NCBI GenBank assembly: GCA_034687125.1
Contig: JAQGBZ010000051.1
Span: forward strand, 62,001 to 126,000
Length of the DNA: 64,000 nt
Origin: Neelides folsomi
Lineage: Eukaryota; Arthropoda; Collembola; Neelipleona; Neelidae
Reading direction: 5' to 3'
Part shown: positions 1-58,400 of the stretch, piece by piece
Position numbering within the stretch: the stretch's first letter is position 1
How the letters are laid out: every line of letters starts with the position of its first letter
Made by a program: the position numbers and the translations under genes
The notes under the pieces: model-generated
Told to the model about the DNA's origin: nothing
The model's input: the letters and a program-made list of their open reading frames with translations, nothing else
Database searches by the model: none

Positions 1-1008
1 GTTGTTTAATTTGATTTTTAAAATTTTAATCTTATTTTCCGCAAGAAAACCCATGCCATGTGCAATTTCAGTCGCCCATTGTAGTAAAACAACTGATTTG
101 TCCATTTCCTCATTTCTATTTATTAAATAATTTTTCCGAATAAACCAAATAAGAAAATATAAAATACATTTATTTTAATCAATAGATTGAATATTATGAA
201 TTTATTAATTAATTAAATAACTTTTTTGGTTTTGGTAAATGTTAACAATTGTTTGTTCAAACTTTTGTTCATTTCCATTTAATAAACAAAGATTTTGTAG
301 TAAATTTTTGAACTTTGAAAGATTTGAACATAATTTTACTGCCACATATATCTCATCTATAATGTAAATATTTAAATATTTATTGATGAGATTTACAGCA
401 CTATCGGTAATAGACAATTAAAACTAAAGGTTTAATTCAATTGAAAATAAATTTTAATTATATATTTTTACTTGAGTTTATATTTTCCGTATTGGCGGCA
501 ATCAATGAAACGATGTTTTCGTGTTTTTCGATTGTTGACATGATTTTTAATTCATCTAAAAGAGATTTGACATGGGCAAGTTTAACTATACCAAAATTTC
601 CGCTTCCCAAAATCGTATTTCCTTAATATTATAATTTTAGTATTTAAAAAAGATTATATTATCATAAATAAATTGATATTCATACATCTTATTAATATTT
701 TTTTATCAGTTTTCTTTAAAAAATATAGTTATATTTGAAATTTATTTATATTTACCAATAAATAATTTTTCTGTTGAAACTTCATAATAGTTATTGTATT
801 TAATGACACGGTCATCATTTGTTAGCAAATTATAGTAAGTTTTTTCCCCTTCAATAAATTCTTTTATTTTCTTTTCGTTTAGAAATCGCTTCAATTCCAG
901 ATTTTTCCTTTTAGAATACACAATGGAATAAATTAGTGCAGAAGAAAGCAAAAGAATGAGAAGTACGCTGACAATGACATTAATTGTTGATTTGTCAATT
1001 TTTGGGTG
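1..1008 (-). CDS. Receptor tyrosine kinase-like gene, partial (TM, juxtamembrane, kinase N-lobe); probable pseudokinase or decaying copy
   Basis: Four exons join in one frame on the minus strand: 1008-756, 621-472, 356-263 and 115 to the window edge, all with GT-AG introns. The first encodes a hydrophobic helix (about 985-915, INVIVSVLLILLLSSALIY) followed by a basic stop-transfer SKRK and a juxtamembrane region typical of arthropod RTKs. The second carries the glycine loop LGSGNFGIV and an alpha-C-like stretch ending HENIVSLIAANTENI. The third has the hinge EIYVAVKLCSN, the fourth the alpha-E helix WATEIAHGMGFLAENK. The beta-3 segment with the VAxK lysine is missing between GIVKLAHV and KSLLDELK. 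The HGDLAARN catalytic loop expected right after FLAENK is not there: the frame runs on as KILKIKLNN to the edge, with no GT in the last 40 bases. Family assignment is fairly safe. Whether this is a functional pseudokinase or a pseudogene is open. Confidence 0.7.
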
Positions 1009-1529
1009 CTAAACATCAATTTTTTCTGGTTTTTCTAATATTTTAATAATGTCAATGTTTTTATTTTTTATTGCCAAATCATGTGCAGTTTGATTCTGAT
1101 TATTCCTTATTTCTTCATTGGCTTTATTTTTTAGTAATAATTTAACCATCTCAATTTGACTGTTATTTGCAGCAAAATGCAAAGGAGTCCAACCATCCAA
1201 TCCAATTGCATTTACATTCGCGCTGTTGTTTAGTAAATTAACAGCAGTTTCTTCAATTCCATAATATGCCGCGTAGTGTAATGCGGTTAAATTCAAACTG
1301 TTTTGATTATTAACATTTGCTCCTCTTTCAATTAGGAAATTCACAATATTATAATGCCTATTTATCAAAGTTATGAGAAGCGGTGTGTTAAATTTCTTTT
1401 TTTCAATATAATTTATATTTGCATTTTTTACAAGTAGCATTTTTAATATTTTTAAGTTCCCATTTTCAGCTGCAATGAACAAAGGGGTTTTCTGTGAATT
1501 TTCCATAAATTCAACTTTGGCATTATAAT
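1009..1529 (-). CDS. Ankyrin-repeat exon, in frame with the downstream kinase-like gene but ended by a TAG
   Basis: The open frame from an acceptor at 1530/1529 to the TAG at 1011-1009 encodes about four ankyrin repeats, recognisable from TPLFIAAENGNLKILKMLL, TALHYAAYYG, GWTPLHFAANNSQIEMVKLL and TAHDLAIKNKNIDIIKIL. The first ATG is at 1506, but seven codons precede it in frame (YNAKVEF) and look like the tail of an earlier repeat. A 72-base intron (1601-1530) would join this to a short upstream exon ending at 1602 (NLLKLLLKL), so the gene probably starts further upstream. Ankyrin repeats are protein-binding modules. After the TAG the same frame continues into the transmembrane exon of the neighbouring kinase-like gene. 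This may be an independent gene, an alternative last exon, or the N-terminal part of one broken gene. The repeats are certain; the gene boundaries are not. Confidence 0.75.
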
Positions 1530-1602
1530 CTAATAATATAAAGTAATTTTATCCTCGAAATAAGTCGACGTGTAACTTAATATTTAAAAAAATAACTGCC
1601 TA

Positions 1603-1674
1603 CCTAATTTTAAAAGTAATTTAAGCAAATTAAATAATACTTGGAAAATATAATTGGGAACAAATACAATTTAA
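1603..1674 (-). other. Possible upstream ankyrin micro-exon
   Basis: An open stretch ending at a GT donor (1601-1600) reads FQVLFNLLKLLLKL and joins in phase to the ankyrin exon, giving the repeat tail LLKLDYNAKVEF. A candidate acceptor (CCAAG) lies near 1645. No TPLHxAA half of this repeat is visible nearby, so the exon is uncertain. Confidence 0.3.
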
Positions 1675-3626: not shown

Positions 3627-6600
3627 TCAACTTTCGTTTTTATACATATCACAAATGAGCTTTTCAATTGGGAGTCTATCGCCAATGTATTTCTTGAAGA
3701 AAAGAGTTTCGATCGTCGCGGAGCTGATTGACTTCAGCTGGGGAAGGAGCAACAGAAGTTTCCCAAATCTTGACGGCTGATTTGAATACGCCATACTGAT
3801 ATAATTGCTCAGCGTCAACTGGGCTTCATCTTGGAGACTCGCCGCAGCTCGCGAGTCTTTTAAACTCTTCGAAACATCACCGGAACAATTCTTAAAGAGG
3901 ACAATGGCTCTTAAACAGGCAAATTCAGTATGATCAACGCCCATTTCTCGGAATTTAAGCATCGTTTCTTCACATGCCTTCAACTCTTTCAATACATCCT
4001 TATGGCAGGGCTCTTCTATTGGAAAGAATAAAATGGTTTAATATTTAATTACATTAAATACAGTAAGTATGTAAGCATACTATGGTAGCTTATATTAATA
4101 CTATAAAATGCACAAACATAGCAATTGAAGAAAAGTGTATTTCTTTAATAAAACTTACCACCAGATTCTCCATGAAATTGTCCTAAAACCTTCGCTCCCA
4201 TTTCTAGCCGAAATCCAAATTGTGAAGAAGCGAGAACAAACAATTCCCGCCAACTTTGCTCCAAGAGGATGAATTGATCCCTCATGGGAAGGGAAACAAA
4301 GGCCGGGACGCTTTTGGCCCATCTCGCATTCCAAAGAAGGAACCGGGCTGCAGTTTCACAGGGGCTGTCTGTTCCAAACATCATCAAAGGGATGTTGAGA
4401 TTTGGATTGTTGAGCAAATGTGTTTGATTTGCAACGGCGAGGAGATTCGAATGCTTCTGTTGTTCCTCTAAAGATTGCTGGAGCATTGCATGAAGCCCAT
4501 ACTAATAATTAAAATAATACATTTTGTTATTTTTTAGTCTCAAAACATTAAAATTAAAGCTTCAAAGCCACCAACGTTGCTTTGAGACTTTTTCATGCCT
4601 AATCATAATAATGTCAATTAAAGGGACAGAGAAAGCTTTGCCATTATACCGTATATTGACGTGCATTAAAATATGGATATTTGAGATATTGTTTATTATG
4701 CAGTACTTCTTTATTTAATCAAAAATAGAATATTTTAATGCACTTTAAAGGTAGTATGGTATAAGTAACTAAAGTCCATCCAGTCCAGTGTTAACAAACA
4801 ACTATCTGTAAATAATAGCCCATATGGCATTTTTAACTGCGTGGTTTTACCAAGAATTCAATATTATTTAATTTAATTTCATTGAATCATTGAATCATTG
4901 AAAGAATGAATGATGATGATTGAATAATAATTATTAAAAAATAATTACAACTTTTTTGCCTTGTCTGGTGCAACTATTGAAATGCTTTAAATGTTCCTAT
5001 ACTAATGTAATAGTGTGTCTACTTTCTTAACGGTCAATATACACCAAGGTATTCCACTCTAGCTCCTACAATATGTTTCTGGCTCAATATTTTAAAAAAA
5101 TTCAAATACATTATTTGTTCAGATTTGGTTGATTGAAGTACTTTCCGAATTAATATTAATCAAAAGTTCTTCAAAACTCTTGTAAACCGTCGCAAAGTTG
5201 TTGATTTTTAAAACTTCTACCTCCTATAGCTCAGAATATATCACTTTATTCATATAAGTTTATATATACATTTTAAGGGAAGTCAAATTTTATATCCCAT
5301 TTCGGAGTTCATTTTTGACACATGTGATAAATATGGTTTCCACGAATATTGGGGCTTAAAGAAACTTTAGAAATGACGTAATTAAATTAGCTTTACCTTC
5401 ATAGGAGGAAAATACATGAGCGGATGAGGAATCTGAGGCCGATGAACATTTCCATTTCGTCCCATTGCCAGGTTGAGAGGTGGCGGCCAAAATAGACCAA
5501 TTCCATGTGAAGACGGGTGATGGGAATTGACAGAGGGCGAGGAGAGATGGGAGGAAGACATTGGAGGCATTTGGTAGTGAAGTTGTTGTTGAGGTCGAGA
5601 TAGCGGCGATGAGAGCGGAGGGCTCTTTGAGTCCGAAGAACACAAAGCCACCAAGGGAAGATTAGAACTTCCTGAAGCCGACGAAGGAGAAGAAGAAGAG
5701 GAAGAAGGAGAGTTGGGACTCGTGCTTGAAATCAATGGTTCGGCCTTAATTTTTGAAGTCTCTCCTATGAGTGGAGTTTCTTTGAAGAAAAGTGTCCTTC
5801 GAAGTGTCGAGTTACGGGGACCTCGCTCATGTTGAACGGCTAAAGACATCAAATTACATTTTATAGTACTTTTATGTCCTTTTATGTACCTTTATTTAAC
5901 AGCATTGACAGGATTGATTCAATTAACAGAAACTTATTTTATAGAAGAATGAATATTGGAAGTAATAGATTGCATGCGGTGAAAGACAGAATGATTAAAA
6001 TAACAATAAAATCTAATTTACCATCTTTGTTCATTCCAGCATCAACACATTTTTTGAGTCTACACGCTCTGCATTGATTCCTGTGGGTTTTGTCAACGGT
6101 ACAGTTTCCTTCAGCTCTTGCTCGACAGACATATTGGCGGTTTCGCCTTATTGATCTCTAAAATCACAACAGACGTCAAATTAATTTAAGTTCCACTCCT
6201 TTAAGCAAAAGTCAGACGTCCTTAGTAAATTCTTCACAACATGTTTTGTTTCTCTTTCAAACTGTGTGAACCTCAATATTGGTAAAAATCGTGGGATTCA
6301 AAAGGTTCCATGCGAAAGAGACGAAAAAAGATAAGAGCCAAAAGGCCCTTAATGTCTCTATGTATTTGTAAACAGGTAAAGACAGGTAAAGACTAGGGCT
6401 CACTTTAAAGAAACCGGCACATCCATCACAGGCAAAGATACCGTAGTGTTTTCCAGAAGAATGATCTTGACAGACTCGACATGGAATATCGTAAAGTATT
6501 CGACCTAATAAATAAAACAAAATATGATTAAGTAATATTCTTATATTAATTTTTCAATTTTCTAGATATCCACAATTCCAATAAACTCTCTATTACATAA

Positions 6601-8057
6601 TAAAATTATGTATTTACCCCCAATTATGTAGATAATATGCATAGAATAGATTGTATAATGTGTAAAATTATACGATTATGTATTGTAAGCGTTTAATCTT
6701 AATTGTAACAATAAAAGAAATGGTATTGTGGACACATACAATACCTACATACAGTATTTCATATTTATGTTTTTATGTATTTCATTCCATTTGTTTTATT
6801 TTGTATTGCAGGTGAGAGGTGAGTGGGGTGAATTTAGGGTTAGTTGGTAAGGTTAATCATATAGGAGGAACAAAAGGGGAAGTGGAGGACTTCCGGTCCG
6901 ACACGTGCAATTGAGATCGCGGTGGGATCGTTGAAGGGCGGAACTGATCCTCCTCATTTCCTCTAATCATTCATCTCCTCTCTGCGAGGGACCTTAAGTG
7001 AAATGGATCTGTAAATCATATCTCATCCGAGGATGTGAGTCCTGGAATCACGCGAAAATCCGAGAGAGACTCAGAGAGATGATGAGTCCTTGTTCCGGTA
7101 TTTTTGCGCCAGTTGGCCCCTTCGAACAACAACCCCTCTCCCTCCGCTCCTCGCCGTCATGAGCTGGTAGATCACGGATGTCAAAAGGAAGAGCCAATCA
7201 ATTATCTATTACTCATTATACTCATCCTGAGCGTGGGAATCTGGGGATGCGAGCACTAAATATATTATACTTACTTGAAGGTCCAACATACCTGCATCAT
7301 GCATCTGTCTGTCCCTTTCCTATGATTTCCAACTTATTGCTTTCCTACGAGGGGATCTTATGTTATGATGCCGGGAAATGGAGTTGACGAGGAAAGTACG
7401 CCAGATTGCAATCAGGAAATGCAGATGTGACTCTTCCTCATCTCGTGAGAAAGTTTTTATAACCGAAATATTGCTACAGGGATCGCCGGTTGTTGACGAT
7501 GAAACCATTTATAAACTTCTCTCCCCATTTCTTAACTCATTTTTCATCCTCTATCCATCATTTCGCATATTGTAAACTGTCTTGTTAATTCTAACTTTAA
7601 GCATATCACATGATAATATGATGAAAAGTAACGCTTCTGCTTTAATATGCATAATTATGATTAATCAATTAAATGTATTATCAATTTGTATTAGTAATAC
7701 ATATAATTGTAGAATCTTATCTCTGTGATACTTCAATAGGTAAAGTATTGGTACTGTAATCACAAATTTTATTGTAATTAAGTACTATATTAAGTATATC
7801 AGTAATACATATAACTTAATAATATCCCATCTTTTTGTGCCGCTATTTCTACTATTGGAGGAAAAATTAATCAAATGATGATGTCTTATAAATAAATGTG
7901 AGTTGACTCATTGACTCTTGTATGTCTGTCTTCTATCCATAATTACATCACACTACTAGGTATAAATTAAATACTTATTTATTCCTGCTTTAAAGTGCTT
8001 TTATATGAAATTTGACTTACTTGAACTTTGAGATACTTTCCCCAAACGGAGATCCAT
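3627..8057 (-). CDS. tll: Tailless-type orphan nuclear receptor (NR2E2)
   Basis: Six coding exons: 8057-8021, 6504-6404, 6157-6022, 5839-5397, 4501-4159 and 4015-3627. Together they give 1449 bases, 482 aa, in one frame. The 37-base first exon encodes [12 protein letters not shown] and joins to SRILYDIPC, matching the N-terminal layout of TLL/TLX. The two-zinc-finger DNA-binding domain spans about residues 21-87, with P-box CDGCAGFFK (alanine as in insect TLL, not the serine of vertebrate TLX), followed by [15 protein letters not shown] long Ser/Pro-rich hinge (about 110-240) precedes the ligand-binding domain (about 260-482), which ends in the AF-2 helix [11 protein letters not shown]. In insects tailless is a transcriptional repressor for terminal and head patterning and for neural stem cells. 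It acts in the nucleus at AAGTCA half-sites. The start is the ATG of the short exon, chosen because it splices in phase to the known N-terminal motif. Confidence 0.93.
4502..5396 (-). other. tailless intron 4
   Basis: An 895-base AT-rich intron between the hinge exon and the first ligand-binding-domain exon. No internal gene is seen. Confidence 0.85.
6505..8020 (-). other. tailless intron 1 with GC-richer islands
   Basis: A 1516-base intron after the 12-codon first exon. About 6830-7520 is richer in GC and includes several GAGAG/CTCTC runs (for instance near 7060-7080), unlike the flanking AT-rich sequence. Short open frames here have no recognisable similarity. It may hold enhancer elements; that is inference from composition and position only. 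Confidence 0.6.
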
Positions 8058-11000
8058 ATTGGTAAATGAATCAATCTTGAACCAAAATAAGAAAACGAAT
8101 TTTGTTCCACTCACACCACCACTTAAAACTTCTTTATCAGTTGGAGTTGAATGGGCCGTTTAGGATGGACATTTGAGAGTTCGTCAGCGTGGGCCAGGAC
8201 TGGGACAACCTTTAATCCGAACGTTGATTTTTGACGAGGAGTGAAGGGTCGGGTGGTGGATGTAGCCATAGGAGTCGGACCAGTCCCTGGGCCCTTGAAT
8301 GAAGGCTGAAGGGCCCGGTGAGTCCCATTGGGCTGGTCAAATGAGAAGTCCCTGCCTTCGGAACCAAAGGCCCTTCCCCAACAAACTCGCTCTCTTTGTC
8401 CGCTAGCCTTTTTCCACTCGACAAATTGGCCTCCTATGACAGAGTCCTCTCACACCCATGGGTGCCCTTTTCATGTCAGGGACCCCTTCCTCAAGATGCA
8501 CCCCACCTTTTGCTCTTTCCTCCACCGCCCCTCCTTTCCTTTATATCCAAGCACAATGGATTATATCCCCAAAATGACATTTGGGTGATCCTGGAGTAAT
8601 TGGACACTCTTATTCCGCTTCTGACATTCAATCTTTTAGGGATATTTCCCTCGTTTTACAAAATTCCCTTTCGGCCGTGGCTTAAAACCCATAATTTGAT
8701 TTCTTTTATTCCTCTTCGGATCCTAAAATGCTCATATATCATGATCTGCCCATTAGGGTCTTACATATTGTGGTATCATGTCTCGTTTAACAGATTGCCA
8801 ATGCATCATGAATTAAATTTAAAATAATATGTGTACAAATGCAATGAAGTTCATGAATTTTTTAAATGACGACAAATATGATTATTTAAATGAGAATGAA
8901 ATAAAATTTAGTAAAGTCAAAAGAAAGAGTGTGAATTAATCCATCGAGAATTGAGAGGTTTGGGAGAATTGGGAAAGCGGATTAAGGTTGGGCGAACAGT
9001 TAGTTATTTTGATTAAAGTGTCGGATGATTTGAGGTCTACCGTTCTCCGAGAGTCGGCGGTTCCTCATTGTCCATATATGGTTGAAGGTGAGTGTTGGAG
9101 CCGATGTCAGAGAGTCAGACGACGGGGCCTAATAGACTCACCGGACTTCATGAAGCGGACTCTTTCCCACAAAGGACCGGGGACACGTAAATGAGTGAAG
9201 GGCCGGCTAATCCTCTCCTATTATCCCATGTGATCCTCAATGAGGTCGTTAGCTCTCTCTATTAAGGAACGGAAAGGGAGAGAGAACCAGCAGGGAAGGT
9301 GCATATTTCAACGACAAATGATGTGTGAAATGACGACTCTCCGCTCTCCTCACCTTTGTCCAGTTCAGAGAGGGAAACAAATCCGGACAAACATCTCCAC
9401 TTCGGGTTCCTAGAGATTATCTCCAGATAACTTTGCCTTCCTCCACCGACTGACCTTCCAAGTTCTCATTCAATCTCTCATATTTACTAGTCCCATTTGT
9501 TGTATGTACTTGTCTGAATCAACTCGGTCGACTTCATATTTCATGGACAAAATCATAAAACGTGATTTTAATGTTGTTTTGCACAATTTCCACATTACAT
9601 GTATTTATAAATTTCTACTTCTTTTACTAGTATTTATTATACATTAAAATATACGCAAAGCAAAACAGCAAATTATAAATTAAATTAAAATTATGTACTT
9701 GTAAAAAGTTCATTAGCTTTTAGTTGTTGAATATTTCTTAGAAAGCACATTTGGCATTTTCATTTATTTAAGAATAAAAACAGGAGCCTCAATAAAGTAA
9801 TAAAACATTAAAATGACTATTAATATTATGTATTTGTATTTTAGAGTATTTAAATACATACTGTATAGTAGTTATTGAATGTCTAATATGGAATTTAAAA
9901 TAGCAAGAGAAGCAATTCGTGATAAGTAATTGTAATATACATAATGTAAAATACTGCTTTCCTTGTAGAAATGCATTTAATAGTATTTAAATAGGTAACT
10001 TATATTCTACTGTTAGAGTCTGATTTTAGAGTCTTATTATGATGAGGTTTGAAGGATCTATCTTCCATCATCTTGTCCATGTCAAAAAAGCGTATTGAGC
10101 CGAAGAGGGTCGAGTGAAGAAATCGTCTTGGGCTTCTTTTCAAATCCTCAGGGTGGGGGATTTTTTTAGTCAAGTTTCCTCGGGTATTCCACCTACGCCC
10201 TTTTCACTCCATTATTCCACTTCTTGTCTTTTGCTTCTCCTTCTAGTCGTTCCCTTTTGTTGTGAGTGCCTACAGGGCCTTTGGTGTTGTAGGTCAATCA
10301 GTTTTGTAATCTGAGCGACTTCCTTGACAATTTCTTCACTTCTTTCTTCTCATTCTTTAAACTCCCCTTTCTCTCTCATCCGGCCGATTTCTCAGGGAAT
10401 TGAATGTCGCATCACATCACATTCACATTCCGTGAGAAAATCTCCAGAGGAAATCACACTCCTTTCATTAAACATCTTTATTCATCTTTATAAACTCTCC
10501 TCTTTCTTAAATATTTCAAAAGCTTGTAATTGATCGATAGCACCGCGTATTAAAGGATCATTTTATGCTTACAACCTGTAAATATAGATCATATTCTTTG
10601 TTAAATGTCAAATTGTATTTTTACTTATCTTTAATACAATATCTACTATATTATACATAGTCTAGTATGTTATGTATGTATGAGTACTACAATATTGTCA
10701 ATATCATCTACTACAACCAATATTATAATATTGTGCTTAAATGTGTACATAAATATATTTATTTATGAATATTGTACAGATACATGTGTATAGTTAAATT
10801 ATAACGTTTCCTTTTCTTAATTATTTTTGATTTTTCGGTTTATCGGTAGTGCTCTGTAATGAATAGAGGTTTCCTATCGTACATTATACAGTAGTTACAA
10901 TCTATAGATTGTGACATTGGGAGTAGTTTGGTATTAGGATTAGAATGGTTTAAGCAAAGAGGTAAATATACTTTTTTGTATCATGAGTTTCATGAGAAAG

Positions 11001-14000
11001 ATTGGGTTAAAAAATATTAGTTGAAGAGGATTGGGATCCAAATAATGGTGTGAGTGGAAGATGTAAAGAAAAAGCATTTAGGAGAGTTGGTAGCAAATAG
11101 ATATTTTGAAGTGGGTGAATTTCAGGCTTTTACCCGTTGTTGAACTTCTCATGAGGGGATTTGGAGTGGGGAACGTGACAGTTTAGTCAACCATTCCGGG
11201 GTCTATTAAGGCAAGAAGAGAAAAGTGGAACCGCACCTTTCCCTCCCATCAACCCCTAAATTGAATTGAGAGTGGAAGAATAATAAAAAAGGGAATCAAA
11301 TAAAACCACACTTCAACTTTTCACACCAGAACCATCCATAGAATCATTTCCAGTTCGGACCCAGCCCTTTGGAAAGAAACGACGCTCGGACCGAATTATC
11401 CGAATAAATAATACCCTTTTGATTGACATGTGCGAAAATGAGGGGTTCTTTTATTCTCTCCACTGAACCACAGCCACCAGCCGCTCAAAACGTGCATTTT
11501 GCATAAATTAAAAAATCAAATATGAGTTGGTCTCAAATTATGGGAGTGAAAGGCGATTATGTTCTAATCGACACCCGGACCAAACAGAAAAACCCTCACA
11601 AGACAATACAAAATACTCTTTTATATCCTTTTTATATCTTTCCCCATTTTTGGGTTGTTGAAACTCAATTGGGTTCCTCAACCCACGCACATTAATTTTG
11701 AATAACGAGATTTGAAAGAATGGTTTCAGCTGCTTGTAAATTCCTCCTTGTGGATCCATTTCAATAAAATTTCATGATTCAATTACCGTTATTTCACTTC
11801 ACCATCTGATCCATTGAACCCCAAAACTCAATTATGTAGCAATAAGAATAAATATTTAATTTTTGAACCTATTTTACTTACACAATATTACATAATAAGT
11901 GTATGTAGTATTTACATTTGTACAGACATTTGTACATCTGTATGTATGGTATGTAGTAGTACATAAATATGTATTTGTCTGTCTTAGGTGCAAGAATATT
12001 CTAAACCAAAACTGATATTACTAAATTAGTGAATATAAATATAAATTAAACTGTAAAACATTCAATTGTATTTGTAGTCAAAAGTAATTTAAATCTTTTC
12101 TTTACCATATGAAACGATTACATGTATGAAGAAATAAAGGAGGTTGGATTTTAAATTTGAATATGATTGAATGGCAAAGGCTCTAAGTTCATCCGGGTAT
12201 TAAGGGAGAAATGACTGGAGGGTGAAAAGCAAAAGGTAATGGTTGGTGGGTGAAAAATGGGGAGGCATTTCAATTGATTCCGTCTAATCTCAGAGCCATG
12301 GTGAATGCAGGCGAAGGTCGGAATGAAATCGGATGGTCGGATTGAAAATCTGAGGAATCTTTTCACGACCTGAATGAAGGTATTAAGTTACAACAAGGCA
12401 AAAGATGAAGTCCCCTTCTCAGCCGTAAGCCATTTCCATTAGACTCACATACACGCACATGAACAGATTGGCGTATTATTGTGTATGAACAAAGGGGGGC
12501 CGAGGAAGGGATCACTCAAGTCTTCATCAGAGCCCTATATCATCATTATATTATTATTATTTTAAAGGAGAAATAAAAAGGGCAGCTTTGTCGAGGGAGA
12601 ACAACCAAATGCGGTAACGCATTCCTCGGACTCTCTTTGACAAATTGCCCTAGTACCCGAACCTCAAAAGGAGCCAATATTATTATCAACGCCTTTGCCA
12701 CTCGGTTTCTCATTTCACTGTATTTAGAAATTGCGGTTCCCGAAGTGAGCTCTGCTTTGTAAACCATCTACTTAACCACTCTCAAATGTAAATTTAATTC
12801 CATTATTGTTCCTCATGAGAAAAAGGTCTATTAAGGAGAAATGGAATGGATATATATTTATATTTAAGACGCTTCGGGCAAACACCCCTTGAATGAAAGT
12901 AAACATAAATACATATAAAGTACAGAGTAAAGACATTTAACACCTCTGTAACATTCTTCAAAGGATTTAAAATTCAAATAATTTTTCCAAACGAAAAATA
13001 TTATAAATTAACCATATCTTTAAAGGGCTGTAAGGTACATCAGGATTATTGGGATATTTAGATAAATTAAATAACTTAACGAGAACATTAGTAACAATTA
13101 GAAAAGGGCGAGGGAATTGAGACGGTTAATGTAAAGGATGTTTGTATTTCTGAGCTGCTGACAAATTGGGGTGGGTTTGTCCATCGAAGGGAGCGATTCA
13201 TTGAGCCATAGTCAAAATAGGGATAAATAGGGAGCTTTCCGGCTTTTTCCTTCTCCCGTAGTAATGCGGCGGACAAAGGGGAGTCGTCGAGTCAGACGGA
13301 GGATGAGAGAATTGTGGACTTCATCATCCCTTTCAATGGCATGTTTTCGCTTAGTTCCACCCTCAGCACCTGGCTCTTCATTTCAACTCATTTGACTAGG
13401 GAGAAGCCGAAAGGTTAAGGGATTCAAGCCAAGACCAGTCAAAAGCCCCTGCAAGGCCGAGACTCTCCATTGTCCCAAACAACATCTATCTCCTCTTCGC
13501 GGCTGACTGTGTCGGAATGGAAAGATGGGAACCGGCAGATCCGAATGGCCGGAGGACTTTTGCCTCCAACCCTCAACCCGACCCACTCAAAACCATTCAC
13601 ATCTCAGGCCAAACATTGAGTCTTAATGCACCCTCGTTTCTATTGAGAAATCTTCTAGTCCTGACTAAACTCCTTTTCTAAAGACCTCTTGTTGGACCTA
13701 CAATTTCCCTCCCTACCTGAAGAAGAGAAGCCTGAGATGATTCTGAAACTCTGTAGGATCAATTGGATGGATTTGGTAAAATAGAAAGTCTCGGGTGTTG
13801 AAGACTCCAATGAGGATTTGTGGAGAAATTGGTCAAGAACTGGAGTTGAACCCGGTTGAATGGGAAAGTAAAGGCGAGTAAAGGAGGGATACTGATGGAC
13901 TGAGACCTTGTTTTTCCTCTCGACTAAATAACTTTTAATGGGGGATGAGACAGGAGAGGAACTCGGCCCGAATTACCGTCACTCCATCGAACCTCAATGG

Positions 14001-40356: not shown

Positions 40357-40405
40357 GTTGGAACCCCGAATGGTTCGTGAAGGTCTCGCCGACTGAGGTG
40401 GAAAC

Positions 40406-43400
40406 ATGGGGGAGGAAACACCCCGCCACATTGTCCGGGTGTATGTTGGGTCTCTATCAGCTGAATATGAGGCCTTGTCGGTGGAGGCGAGCAAGCACAC
40501 AACGGCGGACGAGATCGTGTCGTGCATTGTGGCCAAACTTGGGTTCAAGAGCTTCGGGGAATATGAGCTGGCCGAGGTGATCGGAAACTCGGTGGGGCAG
40601 GAGTGCAAGGAGCGGCGGATTGGCTCCCTCGAGTCTCCCGTCGCACTCAAGCTCTTATGGCCCAAAGCATCAGAAGCCGCAGACTCGGCCCTTTTCCCTT
40701 CTACGACCAATTTCAATTCCGCCAATCCGTCCAATACTTGTCTTGATCAGTACCGGTTTTGTCTCAGAGAGAAGTTGACGACCGAGTCTCTCTGGACTGA
40801 GGGATTTCTCATGGACCCCCAAATAGTCCGAGATTACTTCTACAGATTCCTGTACCAACCGAAGGACAAGGAATATCCTGACCTTTGCCAACTCCCTGAC
40901 CTCAACGAATCAACTCTCCTGGAGAACCTCAAGTCACGGTTTGTTGCAGGTCACATTTACACTTATGTCGGCTCGATCCTCATCGCTGTCAACCCTTTCA
41001 AATTCCATCCGATTTACAATCCCAAGTATGTCAAGTTGTACCAGAATCGGAGAAGGGAAGAATTACCTCCACATATCTTCGCCATTGCTGACTCGGCTTA
41101 TCATACAATGCTGAAGGAGAGGAAAAACCAATGTATTGTCATCAGTGGGGAGAGCGGGAGTGGGAAAACGGAGAGCACGAACTTCCTCCTTCATCACTTG
41201 ACGGCCCTCTCGCAAAAGGGAACTCATGGGAGCGGTGTGGAGCAAACGATACTCAGCGCTGGACCTGTCTTGGAGGTCATTTTCCTTTTAACTCACAATA
41301 CTTTCTCACTATTTTTACATCATTTCTCATATTATGAACCATCGTGCCATTACCCATTCGAAAATATTCTCATTCATTTACGACCCTTTAGACACACCTA
41401 TTTCCCATTGTTGAGGTGTTGAACACAAAGACAGGAATCAAGAGTCCATAACCTTCCCTTATTATTATATCATTTTTAATAAGGATGGGACAAACCGCAA
41501 TGGTCAGAATGCAAAGGATTTAAGATTTTTATTATTTGGATTTGGCATGCAAAATGTTTATTTAACAGTATATAAATATTATAAAAAAAGTAATCGAAAG
41601 ATTGCCGTGTGAGTGTTGTAAAGACGAGGATTTTCTTTCAATTGGCCATTGAAAAATTTATTTTCAAGGGGGTTATTATTTTATCAATTGAATTTTTACC
41701 ATATTATGTACATTGAGATTCTGTATTGATGTATTGGCTTGTCTCTTTGTTGCTAACTTACGAAAGAACGTTAGGACTTGAATTTAAGTTTGGGTTGGTA
41801 AAAGGCTTCTGGAGTGTGGCCATTGTTATTTGAGATGGCATATTTTATCAAAAGCCTTTTCTGCCTCTGTTTCCTTTGGATCTCATGAAGTGAAGGTAAA
41901 TAGGAAGGAGTGGAGAAGATTTTCTTGTCGCTCCTTATCAAACTCATCCTAATAATCCTATTCATTCCCCATCCTCACATTTGATTCAAGACCTTGAAGC
42001 CTTCAAGTTCATACTTTACATCTACAGATACATATGATTTTTACATGTATAAGGTTAGGGCCACAAGGAGGTGGAATATCAATTTGTTAACAAATGCTTC
42101 ACTCAGATTTTTCTTCTTTCTGCGCTGTTGGTATTGTTTTATTATATATCTTACATATACATACTTTTTTAGTTATCCCAACATGATGCATATGAGGATC
42201 GAATAAGTATTTTAGATATTATTGTATTTTTTGTTCAATCTGCATCAAACCGAAATCCTTAAGGAGCCTCCCAAAGATCTTTGTACTTTTGTACATTGCA
42301 GAATTTATCCTTAAGACATTAAGACATAGCCGTGATTGTGCTTAAGCTACAAGTCATAGAAAATTTAGACAACATATGGTGAAGAAGTGTTGAAGCGGAT
42401 TTGAATACACAACTAAAGTTACAAGATGAGTGAAATGTTTACTAATGGAAAAATGTAGTCGATCCCCTAGTATTACACTAACTAGGATAAATGTATGTTA
42501 AAAGAAGAGTTCTTTGAATTTTCTGTTAAACCCGAGCTTTGTGTATTTTTTATCAACAAGTGCTGAAAGTTTAAAGATATCAACTTCCCTTCCAACTTGT
42601 GATTGAGCGGTGGATGTGTAAGCCGATCTTCAGAATCGTTGGCGAATTCTTATGCCAAACTGTCAATGTGGGAAAACATAAGAGCTAAGGATTTTAAATT
42701 AAGTATGAGATTCTATTTAATGTATTTAACATCAAATGAAACTTGATGATAGAAAAGATGGTGAGCGAGAGTTTATGGAACTATGAAGCCCATTAGTATT
42801 TTAGACAAATAAATTCCAAACGAAGGTGAAGGTTTAGCCTGATGTGAATATTAATGATCAATGAAGGAAGATCAAATGAAGAGAATTAAAATACATTTTC
42901 AACCACTTGGTCGAGAATGTATCTTCTAATCTTTTGAGGATTGTTTATTTTATTGTCAACTTTTACATGTTTTTTGACATTATGTAAATGTAAGAGTTTG
43001 GCGGCTTCTTGTGTTAATTCTATTTGAGTTCTTGGATATTTTTCTTAGTTATTGAATGGATGTCGAAATGTTGATGTTGATGTTTGTGGGGGAGAAAGTA
43101 AAAGTTTGAGGGAAGTGTCATTTTCCCTTTATATAAAGGACTATACTTTGATTCTTACCGTTAGTGCTTGAGCCCCCGGTTGGAATTTCTCTTTATTTAT
43201 ATATAGTAAGTAGGGTATAAGAAGGTTAAATGGAAGACTCTTTGTCCACAAGGGCTTTTCATACATACTTATTAGATTTTTAGATACCTTCAGTATCATA
43301 TTTTAAGAGTCATCATCATTCATCACAAATACATAAGAATTTGACAATAAACGAAATATTAATTATTATCTTAGTTTGAAAAATTGTCCCAATTTAATGT

Positions 43401-46400: not shown

Positions 46401-49400
46401 TCCCTTCACGTTCAACTTCTTGATCCATGACCAGGGTGAAATACGCACACCCGGCCTTATCGCTGTTGAGCATATAACTGCAAAGTGTAATAATCATCTT
46501 TTCCAACACACAATTTAGGGTAACTATCATAATTTAGAGGTTTATTTACTTAATTAAATAGCTTACCCTTTTTTGAGATTGCTCTGTCAAGTATCATGGC
46601 GTTGAATTCATATAAATTAAATTATTAAAAATCCATTTCTTTATTACCTAGATAAAATTAAATAAGTTAAACTTACACCTACTACTCAGTATACCATAGA
46701 TGTATCATATAAGCTATTTCCTTAAATAAAATATTTTTATTAACTACGTTTTTTAACATTCTAAATATTTATAATTTATATTTTCTTTCAGGCTTTCGGA
46801 AATGCGAAAACGGCACATAATAATAATTCCAGCCGCTTTGGGAAATTTATTCAAGTCAGTTACAGAGAAAATGGATTGGTCCATGGGTAAGTTTATTTAT
46901 TTATTTTAACAATATTCCATATTATGTTGAATTATTTTATTATTCGGTTTATTTTGTGTAACTATCAGTGAGAAGTCAACAAGTTTATTGATTTAAAAGA
47001 TTTCCTTATCATTGATGTGAAACTGTGAAAGTAAATCAAAGTGAATTTGTAGGGCAATCGTCCAGAAGTACCTGCTAGAAAAATCACGTATTTGCTGTCA
47101 AGCAAAAAATGAACGGAATTACCACGTATTCTATTATTTGCTGGCTGGTGCTAGTGACACGGAGAAAGAAACTCTCTGTCTGCTTCCGCCGAACAATTAC
47201 CATTACCTCAATCAGGTCAGTCACCGATATAATAATACTAACTCTTTTTTTTCTATTTCACCCAACGGACTATTCTGACTATTGACTGCACCTCTCAATG
47301 GCCCATTGTTGGTTCAACCCCCGCCCAGTGAGAGTTCAAACTCACAATTATCATCATTGTCCTTTTGTTCTCCAAATTAGATATCGGTCATCTCCGAGAG
47401 GAGATTTTAATGAGAATTGTTATTTACTTACAACCTACACAGTCAACACTCAAAACTCCCACCAGATTTACCAAATTTCCTATTAAATGCATTATATGAA
47501 TCAAATTTGTAAACTCATCTCCCTGTTCCTTTTAAAAAATGGCTTGATATGGTTTAAAAATGATTCCATTCAATAGTTGAAGAATGACCTGAATGACATT
47601 TCCATTATTGTAGTTTTAAAACCTTTTAAAAAGCCCACTGTTTGTGAATGTAAATGGGAGAATTTATACTATAATGGATTTCAATTCTGTAAGTTTTCAA
47701 GAGTGCGTTTGACGTGAGATTTTTTTATATTTATTTTTTCTTTGGGTTTTGCTCATCACAGTATCATAAATATTTAAAGAAAATTAAATCATGAGTTCAT
47801 GAGATTTAAAAACAATTCAAAGAATTCATTTAAAAGAGGATGAATTATATGTAGGACAAGGATATCGATTCTTAAGATATTTTAACTATTTATTCATCAA
47901 CATTTTTTATCTTCTACAAAGTCGTACAATCCACAACATATTATTATATTGTATATTGTTCGTCTTTTATTTTTTTCCTTAAATGGTGGACATTTGTTCT
48001 TTTAAATTAATCCCCATCACACATGGTTTGTCAAAAAAATTAATGGCATTGACATCTCCCTGTTTACAATATTTTTTACGTGAAGAGCAGTTTGATGGGT
48101 TATTGGGTGGAGGTTTTGTATACGATGAACTAACATTTGCGTTCTTCATTCATTTCCCTATCTTTACATCCTTCATCATCTTTCACGCTATCCTTGACAA
48201 GTGGAAGTTCAGGAAACAATGCCGTTTGACTGCCACAGTTTAAAAACTCACATCTACTTTACTTCTCCTTTACTTACTCCCAAATTACTAACATTAACCA
48301 CCAAAAGAGTAGGTTTGGGAAACCGCGCAGCCTACAAATGTGTGCCAATACTTCTCTGACTGTGCATGTGATTTCTCTGCTTGAGTTTCAAAGTTTTATT
48401 GAATGTACTATCATTATTTAACTTGCTCAAACCATTCATATAATTCACAATTTGGCATATGTGAAGATTATATTTCATACATTTTTTCCTAATTTTGTAG
48501 ATTATCCTAAAGAGTTAAATTGCTCAAATGAGAGAAGCCGTTAAGAATTGATTTGAACAATTAATCACCAATTTTAATGTAGGGTAACTGACTCTGGCTT
48601 ATTGAGGATAAGTAGGGCGATTGATTCTTCAAATGGCAATGGCTTCAAAAGAAAGAACTGTGAAAGAAGTCGAGCAAGATTTTGAAATTTGTTGGAAAGT
48701 TTTATTATAGGAGGAATTGGATCCAAATAGGAGATATTGAAGATATTTCAAATTACAAATAATCAATAACAAGTTGGAACAAATTAATAGTCAAATGAAG
48801 AATGAATATTTAGAGTAAGGAATTTAAGGAAAATATATAATAATATGAATATATATGGAAGGAAAGGATTGTGATGAGAAATTCCTAAGAATGTAAACAT
48901 GGGCATGTTTAAAGATGCGTTCGACCTTGCATATATGTAAGCATTAGTTTAAGTTTTTGAATATTTTGTCTTAAATCTTTATGCCTTGTAGGAACATCCC
49001 ACGTAGTTATATTGGAGGTAGGGTGAAGGTATAATTTAATTTATCATTACAATGGAGGAGAGGTTTAATGGGGAGAGGATGGGATGGTTCATAATTTGCC
49101 CAAGACGTAATATTTTTTGATTAGAATTACAAAGAAGATCTCTCTGAGTCTTCGTCTTCTTCTTCTTTGGGTTACTACATCTAGGGTTGGGGCTTGGGGC
49201 TGTGAGTAAAGGCAAGGTTTACGTGTACCCTTGTTGTTCCTTCCCAACAGGAGAATGAGAAAAAGGAATCTATTGAGCTAGGGAGGAATGTCGTATAAGG
49301 GGGCTTTACGTGTTGGATGAAGAGGCCCCGTAGCCCAAATCTCATCTCATTACTCCGTACTCTAAATAGTTACAAGGTGAACGGATATATATTTGGGAGA

Positions 49401-52400
49401 AATAAAAAGAGGACGGGAAGAATGCAGTTTTTTGTCCTCACTCTCACAATGCAATAAGTTTTTCCATGGAGGATCTCAATGTAACATTACATAGACTTAC
49501 AGTACTTACACATTGGAGGAAACATTATTACAAGGAACTCGAGTACAGATAACGTGCATAATATACATAGATATTTCGTTAGTAGAAGGAAGAGGGAGAA
49601 ATAGTCGTAGTAAAAGAGGTTTGGTGGATTATTCCAGATTTAATGGACCTGTCCTCTTTATTTATATCTTTAAAGTGTGCTAACTTACTCATCTAAAACA
49701 GAAGGAGGAGAAGAAAAGTAAGACAGGGATTCCTCCGATTTTATCTCTCCTTCCTTCATTTTGGCCCTCTCACCCATAATCACTGCACATTTATGTAACT
49801 AACGTCTGATCTTACCTTCTTGTATATAAAATGGTATAAATATATACGTAATATGAATTTAATTTACGTATATTCTTGCGTTTTATTATACATTTTAAGA
49901 CATAAGACACGGTGTGTTTTTATACTGCGTTGGCATATTTAATATGAACAGAATACAGTCAGTCAGTGTACTAATATCACATAAGCTTAATAAGTAATTT
50001 TTAATTGAGGTTTAATAAAGTTTTTTACTAAATGTAAGAATAGTATTTATGTACTTGTAATACCTATAAATATATTCTTAAATAGATATATTCATATGTA
50101 TGAGCGGTTGAGGAAATGTATTTAACACCCAAAGAGGAAGGGAAAAGGAATCACGCTGGGTGTAACATTAGGACAGACTCACAAGAAACTCATTGTCAGT
50201 CCGATTGCACAATGTGACCCGCTGATTGATGTGCATTCAAATGATCATTCTCTCCAATTACTTGAAGTGTATCAGCACATGCTATTTTTAAAGGGTTATA
50301 AAAATAGTATAGTGTGATTTAATGTGATATGACCGACCGACTATTTTATACCAAAGAACTGTTCTCGGATCGTATTTAATATGTATGAGTAGATACAAAG
50401 AAAAAGTCAAGTCTCAGTTCCTCATTGTTTTGTTTTTATTCACAGAGTGGGTGCTATACACTTGATGAAGTCGACGAGTGTTACGAGTTCTCCAGGTTAA
50501 AGCAATCAATGGAAATGGTCGGATTTGGAGCAGACAAACAACGAAAATTATTCTGCGTCTTGTCAGCTGTGCTTCTCCTTGGTAAGAAAAACTCATCTTA
50601 TCTCATTACTTGATTGAAGGGGATAAAAAGCGTAGTGGAGTAGTTCAAATCTACTTTAATCAATGTGGGCGCTGGCAAGTAAAAACATTGAAGGTTGGAG
50701 AGGAAAAACACAATTTTTTAAATGGGTTTACAATAAGTGTTACACATTTGAGTTCCTCCTGATGAGGAAGAGTTTTATTATATTTATTATTATGTAAAAG
50801 GGCAAGGCTTTGAATTTAATACTTTTAATACTTTACAAGCTGATTGTTGGGAATTTATATTTTATTTAGACATGTTATGTTTGGAAAAGGAGGGACTTTG
50901 AAATTTGGAGTTTGTGTTTGGAGTTTCAAGGTGTGATCGAATGATGGTGAAATCAATGAGACTTGTGTAAGGTGAATAAATATGGTGAGGGGGATGATTT
51001 GGGGTGCTGAGGAATTACATGGGTTGGGTCGTCGCTTCGGTCGGCTCGTTACCAAACCCATCATGTCCTGCAATATATAAATCCTATATAATATTTATTA
51101 TGTACACATACTCTTGGATATGTATAAGTACATATTTTAAGTAGTAAAGAGTATGAAATCATTCCTTTGGAATTCCATACACACAATCTTTATTTAGCTT
51201 CGCTTATTCAATTTTTCACTCTCGTTGTCTTTTTCTTCACATTCAATACTTGTTGTAATCCTTGTACTTTGGCGTTTAGTTTCTAAACATTATTCCTATT
51301 GCAATTTCTCATGGTTTGGCCCATCATTGTTAAATTATTATTATTGTAATGCATTTTGAACATTATTGTGCTTGGTGAATAATGCTAGTAGCCTAAGCGT
51401 ATGGAAGGTTTAAATTACCTCTTACATGAATTGAAGCTTCTTCTTTTCCTTTGTTAAGATTCTCATTTACCACTTGACATGAGAGGATTCTATATTTTTC
51501 AATAGCCTGATGGATTGCTGATTTCACAATAAACGAAGAACTTGGGACAACTCTTAATTGAATCTTATTTGTAATTAATCCTGTAAACCGAGTGGATAAT
51601 GCTTATTGTCATTTCCAAGGTCGTTCACTTTTCGTTGACATAATTTGGTGAAGATCGTATCAATTTATCAATGGTTGTAAATGGCCAGTTTATTCACTGT
51701 TGAGAAGGTTGAGTAACATTAATTTGTTGGCGCGAGTTTGGTTTTTATTTGCGCATTAATTTTTAATTGATTTGAGGAATTTTAAGGTGATCTTGGTGTG
51801 ATAAATTGTCTTAATTGTTTGGTATTGGTTTGGATCAGGTTTGAATTGGTTCAAAGAGTTGAATTGGCTGAAAGCCGAAACAAAGCGAAATGTAATATGT
51901 AAATATTTGTAGCATATTATGTTATGTAGTTTTTTGAATGTCGTAGCATTGTTTATTGAGAATCAAATGAAAAGGATAGCCTTTTTGTTATGATCTTATG
52001 ATGGTTTTGTGGATTATCAGATTATCATTGGTATGGACATGGATTATACAGGAGGGATGAAGGTGGATTGTTTGTGTTGAGAATTGAGATTAATTAAGTG
52101 ATAAAGATTCTTGCTAATCATTTTCCTTTTATCGGGTTTAGGAAACGTTGAGTTTTTGCCAAAAAAATCTTCATATCATCATGATGAGTCAGTGCTGGTC
52201 AAAAATCCTGAAGTTGTTCGTCAAATCTCTTCACTTCTCCGCGTAACGGAAGAAACTCTCATGGCAGCGTTGACATCCAAAAGGGCGCGTGTCTCGGGAG
52301 AAATGCTAGTCATTCATTATCGCATGCCTGAGGTAAGTTGATTGATATTCAATATCAACACTTCCGTTTTTTATATCTACCACAAAAAAATTGTAAATAG

Positions 52401-55400
52401 CTAATCGTTACATCGTTAGTAAGCATTTAGGTCTGGGAAAATGGATCTATGTATATATCTTTTAACTTTGGATGGATAGAGATACCTAATAATAATGATA
52501 CACTTTAGATACGCTATTAACTAACAAGGGATGAAATAAGCGAATAAGCCTATATCAAATAAGTACATTTCTTATACTAAAATAAGTATAAGATTCATAT
52601 AAATACATACTCGTTTATAGGATATGGAAGAAAGGTATAATGAAGGATATTTCCTTTTGGATCATATAAAATATGTGTATTTTCTTTTCTTTTATAGTCA
52701 AACATTTATTATTATAATCGCTAATGATTTCAACAAGTAGAATTACGTTATATTTTGAGATAAAAATAATGGTCTTTTAATGAGTTTTGAGGTAAAAACT
52801 CGTTTTCCGTCAATTGGGTGATGGAAATGATGAAGATGAAGACTATGAATTTCTTGAGATGAATGCTCTTGAAAAGGATGGGAGGGAAAAGGAAAATAGG
52901 CAATTATTATATATATATGTGTGGAAGGAGCTGAACGCTTGAGGAGGATCAGATCTGTTCTATTTCCTCAAGCAGTTAACGTTACTTTGTACAATTCGAG
53001 AGCTTCAACATTAAATATCAATTTAAACGGAAATGGTTCTGAGGGAGAAAAACGAGGATTTACAACCTACGTGTCCACTTCTGTTATAAAGAATTATTCT
53101 CCTTCGTTTTAAAACCTTTTTTGCTCCCAAGTCTCTGTCTTCTTTTGGTGATTGGCATTGTGGAGGGAGAATTATTGAAACATTTCGAGTCTGTACGGAT
53201 ATATAATTTATATTAGCCCATCCATTGTTCAAATTCATTTTTAAGGGGAAATCGGGGGCGTTAAATTTGGTTGGGTCCTTTCAGAGGAATGTGTATTAGG
53301 CCCATTATTATTTTGATTGTTTTCCGATCCTTTTATTATTTTTCTTAATTAATTATTTTAATGATGATTGAGTATATTACATATTATGTAGAATTAATCG
53401 AAGATTTAAGTAACGAATCGAATTTTTATTTCTCAAATCAAATCAAATCAATATATTAAATACTGATAAAAGAAGTATAGTATACATAGCTAAATATTTA
53501 AACTTTACACATATTTTTATCATAGATGATATTTTGTTGATGGTATTCATATCATGAAAATGCTGGGGGTGAATAAGTACGATGTGGGTCGAAATGGAAA
53601 GGAATTATAATGCAAATTAGTCGTTATTATAATTATTGGATAATTGAGTTCCTGCCCACTACAATTTAATTAGTAGAAAAGTGTGGCCTGAATATTAATT
53701 GAGGAATGACAAGTGTTTGGATGATTTAAATTTATAAGAATCCTTGATCAAAACTGGTGTTATTTCCTTATTTTGGCAGGAGATATGTCTGGGTACATGT
53801 TGGGCAGGATTCATTTGATGGGTCTTGGCCAGGGAGATTAATTTATTGGTTTCATTGATGCAAGAAATTTTGCAAGATGCGTAGGAGCTCTTATTTTTAA
53901 GATTGTTGAAATTCATTAAGTTATGAAAAAGGCAACATTTTGTGTCTCGTTTATGTATTCAATTCCTTGGTTGATGAGACGGATTGGAATAAATGAATTA
54001 TTTTGAGTGAGTGGATGTGAAAGTGTGTAATTTGGCTAAATCTCCACTTCGTCTCTCTTTATTCTCTTTAGGAATCAAATGAGAGAGAGAGAAATGAAAT
54101 GAAGTGTGAAGATGAGGATTTTATTCTCTTGTCTCTGTTCATTCCTCCTCCGGTCCAACTTTGTTTAATTCTCCATTCAACGAGGGTCTTAGTAGGGACA
54201 TTTGACTCATTGAGGCACATCATTGTTTTCATCATTACATTTCCACTTCAAAATGTTGAAAATGGTTTGGATGTGGGATGAAGTCGTGTGAGCGGAGGGT
54301 GGGAGTAGGAAAAGGAAAATATTCCACTTCACTATTATTATTATTATTATTATATGTACATGGGATTGAATGAGGATTTGAATCAAAGGAAATAATGACA
54401 TTGAGTGTAAGCCTCGGGTTCATTTCATGACTATGAAGATGATGAACTGCTTGACAACTTACCCATTAGTTTCAGCTTATATTTATGTGTATAAGTTTTA
54501 ACTTGAGCTTATGATTGAACTTAAGCTAGGAATCATGTAAGCTCATTGACTTTCCTCATTGCCTTATAAATTGAAAGAGTCAATTCCAATTCCTCCAAGC
54601 CTTTCTTCTCTGATCTTGAGCACTGAACAGATGATGACTATGTGTTTACATTCCAAGGGACAATTTACAAATTTTATCGCGCTTATCGATATTTTCCCCC
54701 TTGGGGATTTGTATGAATATTTACTTGAGTTGATATTGAAGAACGGTGAATGAATGAATTCATTCCGATTAAAATATCAGCAGATGGATTTATTATATGG
54801 GATTGTATAGTACTTATACGTGGGAGATTCGTTACAGAAGGAATGGAAAATATCTATGTGATTATATGTATATGGTATTTGGTATAGGTTTTGAAGTTTG
54901 CCTGGAGATTTAAATTATGCATTAAGTGATGATTGATTATGCGGATAACTTGGAGGTTGAGATGCATCAAGATGCTCTATAGTCTTTATAGAGATTCATT
55001 GGAGAGTATTATCTAATTCTTATATATCTAATTTTTTTATTCATTAAAGGCAATAGCTGCTCGTAATGCCATGGCCAAATGTCTTTATGGTGCACTGTTT
55101 GATTGGATTGTTCTTCAAGTTAATCATGCCCTTTTGAGCAAGAAGGACCCTGCCGGGTCTGAGTCCCTTGGAAAATCAATTGGCGTCTTGGATATATTTG
55201 GATTTGAAAATAAAGATTCCCAAAATAGTCTCGTGCCAAGGTAAGCCCATTACTTCACACTTACTTCTTCGACCTTGTCCTTTGGGACCTGTAAAGATAA
55301 CATCTACATAATATTAGGTATTCTCCTCTTTCTTCTCAAATTAATTTCAATTTTATCACTTGTAGTTTCGAACAATTTTGCATCAACTATGCCAATGAGC

Positions 55401-58400
55401 ATCTTCAACACTACTTTAACCAACACGTCTTCAAGTACGAACAGGAGGAGTATAAGAAAGAACAAATTCTCTGGACGAACATCGGCTTTATGGACAACAC
55501 ACCTTGTTTAAGTCTGATTGAGGCAAAGCCGAATGGCCTGATTTGCATCTTGGATGATCAGTGCAAGTGAGTGAAGAAAGCATTTGACTAATGATAATGA
55601 AAGTGATTGTGGAAAAGGAGAATAACTTTGATGAGGAGAACGAGAATAGTATTTGAGATGAACTACTGAATGAGTTGAAGGAATCTCCAGAGTAGAACTT
55701 AAAAATGACGTCTTTTAATATAGCAATTTCAATTAGGTTGTATATGATTAATATGAATATCAAATCGACATTTTTCTAAATATATAAAAGCTATTTGTAG
55801 AAGAGAAGGAAAAGAAGAAGGGCTTAAAAATATTCAAATGAAAAAGATTGGGAACAAAAGTCGGGATGGGATTATTTTTCCAATTATTTATAAAGCAAAA
55901 GAGTTACATTTTATCTTTTTTTTATGTAATAGAATCTCAAAAATATTTTTTTATTGTATTAAGCATTTTTACGACTGAGGTTTTACCGAAAGGAGTATGC
56001 GTTTGATCTGTATGTATGTATGTGTTCGTTTTCTTTGGAAGCTAACTCCTCCCAAACGCCTTAACCAATCAGACAACATAATACATCAACGACGTGATTT
56101 AATGTCGGGCAAGTCGGGCAAGTGGTCTAATGTCGGGTAAGGGGGTAGGGACTTTTAATTTCATAATGGTTAATTGATTAACCATGATTAACCATAAAAG
56201 AAAAAAATTCAAAATCCATTAGAAACATAATTAATAATAAAGATCTAATGTTAAAAAATTCTTTTTTTAATATAAAATAAAGTTAATGGCAATTGGGTTA
56301 AACTTTGTAAATGGATTTAACTTTTTGAAACTTTAACCAACTTTAAATCACTTTTTAAATCAAACAATGCATTCACTCCTTTCGGTTAAAATGATGAAAT
56401 AAAACCAATTTGAAAAATTGAAAAAACGACTGAGGGATGGGTATTAAAAAGCATGAAATAACCTCAACAAATGATTAATTAATTGTCGAGGTCGTCGCAA
56501 ATTAGAAATATATAAAAAAAATTATTGTAATCAAAATCACTTATACCAAACACATCATAACGTATCGGTAATTGTAGGCTCCTATCGGTTACCGGAGTTT
56601 CGGGTAAAGATCGGGTAATGAGATTTTAATTTACGGGGATTACGGGACCCGTCAAGATATCATCAGGTACGGGTACGGTTTTTAATATTATCCGTTCGGG
56701 TGCCATTCGGGTCAATTTCGGATATTATCATAAAATACCGAAAAAGGTAAGTTTGGGCTGATAAAGTAAGAATTTTTCACGTATCCACGAATTTAACTAG
56801 GTATGTATGTTAAAATTAGATGTAAAATACCGTCATTTGTGAAAATCAAGCCACCTCTGAACCGGATTTAAGGATAACATGAAGAATTTGCGACGACTTC
56901 GGCAAATAATTAATCATATGTTGAGGTTATTTCATGCTTTTTATTACCCATCCCTCAGTCGTTTTTTCAATTTTTCAAATTGGTTTTATTACATTTGTAA
57001 AAACTTTTTCGTCAACTTGTCTATTTTTCCATTTCATAATAATTTATTGGGATATAATTAAATGTGTTTCTAGAAAGTATATTTTTTGTATAAAGTTTAT
57101 AAAGATAATTTTTGATTACAAACGGAAAATAAACTACAAATGGTCCTTGATTAAATAGTTAGGAGATTTTAACAAGATCTAATAAAGATGCAATAAAAAG
57201 TTTCGATGAATGGCCTACGCGAAGTTGAGAGTTCTTTAGTAATAAATTTATTGGGACGAGAGGGAAAATGAATTGAATTGTGATAGAAAGAGTTTGAGCT
57301 TTATTGATTTTTGATATGACATTTGTGGTTTTGATGTGAATCGCAGTTTTCCTGGAGCCACGAGCGAGACTCTTCTTCAAAAGTTTAATTCAGTACACAA
57401 AGAACACGAGTTCTACGAAGTCCCACAAAAGAGAGAAGCAGCTTTCATCCTTCGCCATTATGCTGGGAAAGTTAAATATCAAGTAAGTTGAACCCTGATG
57501 TTCCTTCAATGTAATCCTCGGCTCCTCAATTGCGCAACTTGATTAATTTTAGCTCAATATAATGAGACATCTTTCAACTCAACTTCTCGGTTGAGATCTC
57601 TTCGTTTCAATGAGACACACTGGAAAGGGAAACCCAATCAATCTAACAATTAGTATGAACCACGTGGAAAATTTAATTATGATTTACCTTTAAGTTTTCA
57701 CCCCAACTTAGAGATAGTTTTAGTGAGGTTTCTTTGCATAACATACAATGGTTGCATTACGTATTGTATACACAATACTGGATACAATACTTGAAATGTA
57801 TTATATTGATATTGGGCTGGGCATTGTTCCTTGTTGACTCAACTTTCACAAGATCATTTATCTTTATGTGTGGGCAAATGTCCTCTGGCTTTTCATAACA
57901 TTATGTCAATATTACATTACATTCATTCTCATTTCCTTCATCCTAATCGTAAAGGGGAAATCAGAGGATTAAACTCAATAGATTACTTTCATTAAACCTC
58001 TCATTGCTAATTATTCCCAATAATTAAATTACTTAAAGTTTAAATTTAATAGTTTAATAATTAGCCATTATTACATAAATATTTCAATTAATGAGCTTTT
58101 CTAGTGAAAACGATATTTGATTGATACAATGTGTACCTACTGTACAGTTAAGGTATATAAATTAAATAATAAAGCATGTTACCCAATATTATAAATATTT
58201 AACCAATGGCCAAGGGTATAATTAGTACTTTTGCACAATAAATTAATCTTAAATTCAAAATGATTGAGTTGTTTTTATTAAAGTAATTTAATATTAATTA
58301 GCAAGTTTCTCGTGTATTATCATTATTAAAATGAATAATAAAATTTGTAAGCCCTTTTAACACTTTTAAACAGTTCTTGAGTCAGTTTTCTAAGTCACGC

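Follow-up and report, generated by a model that had tools for sequence, protein, structure and literature searches.

The ankyrin, transmembrane (TM) and kinase-like sequence at the start of the window, that is, the whole 64,000-nt stretch analysed here (C51:62001-126000), is very probably a pseudogene. As judged from sequence analysis, it would belong to an expanded family of trefoil-ankyrin receptor tyrosine kinases, whose ankyrin array would lie outside the cell and bind ligands. The genome comprises 75.1 Mb in 840 contigs, which are denoted by C-numbers, and the left flank of the window was read as well. The value of the window copy is that of a pointer to this receptor family, and it is also evidence for the birth and death of its members.

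A broken copy at the edge of the window

An initial sequence-only reading placed ankyrin repeats, a TM helix and a tyrosine kinase-like part in one minus-strand frame split by a single TAG, and this layout was confirmed. The ORF at 1009-1548, which encodes 179 aa and ends with the TAG, is followed at the next codon and in the same frame by an 88-aa frame (742-1008) containing a single strongly hydrophobic helix, and kinase exons lie downstream. The TM exon of that reading is real and in the same frame, but it ends near 756, at a GT donor, and not at 742. The parts of the copy are given below in window coordinates, or in contig coordinates where C51 is named.

1549..1551, minus strand: in-frame TAA that bounds the ankyrin remnant on its 5′ side (tblastn and reading)
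1012..1548, minus strand: what remains of the ankyrin array, with some 4-5 repeats (Pfam: Ank 1.2e-32 in 4 stretches; Ank_2 1.2e-29)
1009..1011, minus strand: in-frame TAG at the boundary between the last ankyrin repeat and the TM helix
756..1008, minus strand: TM helix and juxtamembrane segment, remainder of the exon (GT donor at 755-754; 30 genome matches)
472..621, minus strand: kinase exon E2, at about 472-621 (tblastn; exon ends read from the sequence)
205..356, minus strand: probable kinase exon E3 (EIYVAVKLC), identified by reading, with its 3′ end left undefined and without a BLAST match of its own
28..135, minus strand: kinase exon E4 (tblastn)
C51:61944-61822, 61721-61509 and 61393-61310, minus strand: kinase exons E5, E6 and E7, left of the window (tblastn)

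The ankyrin remnant is 26-41% identical to its paralogs in tblastn searches; the best alignment extends over the TM part, and the ankyrin similarity ends by about 1575. The 88-aa TM/juxtamembrane frame matched no Pfam family. In addition to the TAG, the copy is truncated at its 5′ end, and 23 residues of its E2, the VAIK lysine among them, are deleted in frame when it is compared with the full family member on C756. In E5, a TAA occurs at C51:61893-61891, and the DFG motif reads DFD. E6 is stop-free and 63% identical to that of C756, and E7 also matches stop-free. When C51:54001-74000 was searched by tblastn, using C756 and five long paralog frames as queries, neither a trefoil nor a signal peptide match appeared; the genome has 66 trefoil matches, all of them on contigs other than C51.

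Three explanations had been offered for the TAG: a nonsense mutation in a fused gene, stop readthrough, or two neighbours sharing a frame by chance. The first is borne out by 20 of the 30 relatives found through the TM exon, in which the ankyrin-TM frame is unbroken, and by the further lesions of the window copy. Because these lesions are present here and unbroken copies occur elsewhere in the genome, we conclude from the sequence that the window copy is a pseudogene. If the TAG were regularly read through, the window gene would yield a working ankyrin receptor kinase, and it is true that the frame is open before and after the TAG and that some kinase exons have open frames. However, the linker at this position is stop-free in the ankyrin relatives, and readthrough is highly improbable because the kinase is also broken by the deletion of the catalytic lysine region, the second stop in the catalytic exon and the DFD, and the 5′ part is missing. 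Somewhat less improbable, although still quite unlikely, is that the copy persists as a shortened receptor or a pseudokinase that acts as a regulator or decoy. The open TM/juxtamembrane exon and the stop-free E6 and E7 would suit such a role, but any product would be cut by the stops before E6, and the trefoil and signal peptide are those parts for which the flanking sequence gave no match.

Adjoining the pseudogene, at 3627-6553 on the minus strand of the window, is a nuclear receptor gene, with zf-C4 and a hormone receptor domain, which we take to be tailless-like by its motifs. The start of a myosin, presumably myosin-IX-like, whose RA domain precedes the motor, lies at 40397-41422 on the plus strand, and the window also contains a Chitin_bind_4 cuticle protein. 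Four neighbouring 2-kb bins at 48001-56000, which include the two highest of the window, have a positive GC skew of 0.12-0.24. TGA is read as Trp in the mitochondrial COI (animal mitochondrial code), and together with the cuticle protein this points to an arthropod. The Pfam model of the Lin-12/Notch repeat has 3 matches in the genome, all in one frame, which makes the copepod Oithona nana, for which these repeats were counted with a special model (PMC8301441), an unlikely source.

The putative receptor family in the genome

A genome search with the 88-aa segment of the window TM exon, in which 32 candidates were scored, gave 30 matches. The sequence-only reading had proposed a search for the fused order without the stop, and that order was found in 20 of these matches, on 16 contigs, each with a stop-free frame of at least 300 aa that runs upstream of the TM segment and contains ankyrin cores; in C756, this frame also joins to the kinase. 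Ankyrin array and TM segment lie in a single exon in those relatives. The upstream frames measure 311-1412 aa within the fetched pieces; 4 of the 20 frames are cut off by the edge of their piece. A simple pattern counted 6 to 29 ankyrin cores per frame in the 20 frames, and separate ankyrin matches are among those listed. The eleven longest paralog arrays, when read, span about 700-1400 aa, and the fuller relatives appear to have about two dozen repeats. A separate ankyrin gene and a receptor kinase gene that abut by chance would be expected to share a frame in one case of three. Yet chance is excluded because the relatives carry the same abutment without a stop, on all of those 16 contigs, and the long uninterrupted frames contradict it for the family; we therefore give this explanation practically no weight.

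In seven of the 30 matches, a short TM exon follows Ig-like exons, as identified by reading. For four of these seven, eight pieces in total were compared with Pfam: I-set was found in all four juxta-TM pieces, in two of them above the cut-off, and the upstream pieces gave weak Ig matches below the cut-off in three cases and none in the fourth. The remaining three matches are the window copy, C806 and C375, in which ankyrin sequence occurs in broken frames. Trefoils share the frame of the ankyrin array and TM segment in 12 of the 20 ankyrin members (10 read directly; for C532:677-928 and C454, the assignment follows from agreement in frame length). Of the remaining eight members, three (C451, C259 and C133) have their trefoils outside the ankyrin frame, which suggests decay in these sequences, and five show none.

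The complete join from the signal peptide to the end of the kinase was made for C756, and the comparison with PDB classes likewise refers to C756. C756:7338-12689 joins into 1526 aa with GT-AG introns, or into 1556 aa if a GC donor is used, the E3 donor being uncertain. A single exon (7338-11106) contains a signal-peptide-like start, three trefoils, the ankyrin array, the TM helix and the juxtamembrane segment, and short kinase exons come after it. The Pfam scan identified Trefoil (8.7e-19, 3 stretches), Ank_2 (3e-156, 13 stretches) and PK_Tyr_Ser-Thr (7.1e-71), and neither an Ig domain nor SH2. The trefoils of the fullest members are three in number and of the P-type. KIT, PDGFR, VEGFR, FLT3 or CSF1R account for 59 of the best 60 of 2262 PDB rows; the top row is a chain with two EGFR kinase copies, whose scores are summed. 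The TM segment of C756 has no confirmed relative in the virus and prokaryote contig sets, where none is expected.

The kinase motifs (K, HxD and DFG) of receptor tyrosine kinases are present in the family, and the window copy lacks the full set. The catalytic lysine (VA[IV]K or IAVK) is kept in 26 of 27 E2 matches, and within the fetched pieces DFG is kept in 20 of 21 E5 matches, one of which contains a stop; the window copy is the exception in all three respects. E2 lies downstream in 19 of the 20 ankyrin-frame loci, and C388 runs off the contig. HRD reads HCD in 20 of the 21 E5 matches and YCD in the other; this holds for both Ig and ankyrin members. Stops in C375 (E2) and C259 (E6) indicate that decay recurs in the family, and the altered Gly loop together with YCD at C532:21913 indicates that open copies need not all be active kinases. 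We read the family as an expanded group of receptor tyrosine kinases in which a DARPin-like outer domain would serve for recognition.

Several frames resemble parts of these receptors. Very regular ankyrin repeats fill the open frames C342:56-1717, C517:3929-5221, C235:38068-41298, C459:43597-45298 and C829:10-1545, in which N-x-T often precedes PLH. The genome search found no TM-exon match on C342, C517, C235 or C459, and the sole match on C829, about 8.7 kb from the ankyrin-rich frame, belongs to an Ig-type copy. These five are possible donors of the ankyrin module. Short open frames of 136-288 aa with two or three trefoils (C148:29657-30136, C544:5246-5545 and C468:15-293) are possibly soluble or decayed relatives. 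A 970-aa frame at C699:3704-6346 has three trefoils and ankyrin repeats; it has no TM-exon match of its own in the genome search, and an Ig-type receptor kinase occurs on the same contig (C699:12808).

Position and variation of the ankyrin array

In members whose 5′ end was read, hydropathy and reading identified a signal peptide and a single TM segment between the ectodomain and the kinase. The hydropathy peaks of the 20 frames, as fetched, are 1.63-1.89 inside the arrays versus 2.58-3.55 in the TM helix. We infer a type I membrane topology, with the ankyrin array outside the cell, for the fullest members because a signal peptide and cysteine-rich trefoils precede the array, and a single TM segment and then the kinase follow it. 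Two other features were considered as proof of this location and rejected as not discriminating. The arrays contain little cysteine (0-0.71 per 100 residues), but so do the Notch ankyrin repeats of the same genome (1 in 220 residues). In all 20 arrays, N-glycosylation sites (N-x-S/T) are more numerous than the mean of the shuffles, but they are also common in five ankyrin-only frames, counted unshuffled.

Six close paralogs, 82-86% identical, were compared in 15 pairs per region. The median dN/dS is 0.32 for the signal peptide and trefoils, 0.40 for the linker, 0.44 for the ankyrin array and 0.25 for the TM/juxtamembrane segment, and these six sequences look constrained. Within the array, variation was compared between positions that, by DARPin numbering, are taken to be those randomised in DARPins, and other positions. 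Over 22 repeats, of which one was misregistered by 5 residues, the mean pairwise amino acid difference is 0.324 at the DARPin-type positions versus 0.155 elsewhere (Mann-Whitney P 1.9e-11) and versus 0.191 at six helix-surface positions (P 0.0002). With the register correct, the pooled pN/pS is 1.51 [0.93-3.12] at the two helix-1 positions, 0.72 [0.46-1.23] in the hairpin and 0.81 [0.63-1.08] over the whole binding face, versus 0.44 [0.30-0.69] on the back surface and 0.17 [0.11-0.25] in the core; the intervals for the helix-1 positions and the whole face both include 1. The repeats and pairs behind these position statistics are non-independent and come from six paralogs of one family alone. 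Variation concentrated at the ankyrin target face is the pattern that a diversifying recognition surface would show, short of proof of positive selection.

Long ankyrin arrays elsewhere act as elastic parts, and the array may be a spacer or spring rather than a ligand surface, the binding being done by the trefoils. The trefoils are outermost, and their dN/dS is below that of the array (0.32 vs. 0.44). However, the paralogs vary at the target face of the array and not at its back, and eight of the 20 frames show no in-frame trefoil; we consider the spacer function a serious but unlikely alternative. In the recognition receptor that we prefer, the concave face of the array would bind diverse or fast-changing protein ligands, and binding would cluster the receptors and lead to tyrosine phosphorylation.

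Origin of the module and comparison with known systems

In a TM/juxtamembrane tree of 29 of the 30 copies (C806 was left out), ankyrin and Ig members group with 3 label changes, the least possible being 2, and none of 200 shuffles gave as few as 3. C454 falls among the Ig members, 4 of 26 inner branches are well supported, and the tree does not show that the ankyrin members arose only once. The trefoil-ankyrin part is one long exon, whereas separate exons persist in the Ig members; for this reason, the module probably took the place of the Ig exons upstream of the TM exon, and expansion would have come afterwards.

We tentatively propose, with slightly more doubt than confidence, a repertoire of surface tyrosine kinase receptors that bear a natural DARPin-like array, the binding face of which would diversify as repertoires for immunity, chemosensation or self-recognition do, once a trefoil-ankyrin exon had replaced the Ig domains of a PVR/VEGFR-like receptor. 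If this is true, evolution has reached a design similar to that of the engineered DARPins, and the family would offer a new type of ligand-recognition repertoire, with immunity and chemical sensing as candidate roles. Ankyrin repeats are known chiefly as protein-binding repeats inside cells and are rarely found outside them.

Among the titles and opening lines of abstracts listed for this layout in an open-access library, none describes a receptor kinase with an ankyrin ectodomain; at the same level, the phrase "secreted ankyrin repeat" leads to an oomycete genome paper and an Anaplasma effector paper.

The class III/V receptor tyrosine kinases (KIT, PDGFR, VEGFR), among which arthropod PVR is counted, share with this family the single TM segment, the juxtamembrane segment and the most similar kinase, and the seven sister members found here have Ig-like ends. 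However, the ectodomain of that class consists of Ig domains and its catalytic motif is HRD, whereas the ankyrin members have trefoils and ankyrin repeats in one exon and the family has HCD. In Shark and HTK16, too, a tyrosine kinase is combined with ankyrin repeats, but these proteins are cytosolic, with SH2 and without a TM segment, signal peptide or trefoil; C756 has a TM segment and signal peptide and no SH2. Latrotoxins are secreted toxins whose ankyrin repeats act outside cells, and by description they are set apart from this family in being neither receptors nor kinases. DARPins are designed, soluble ankyrin binders; the family described here is natural and predicted to be membrane-bound, and it varies at the positions that DARPin libraries randomise.
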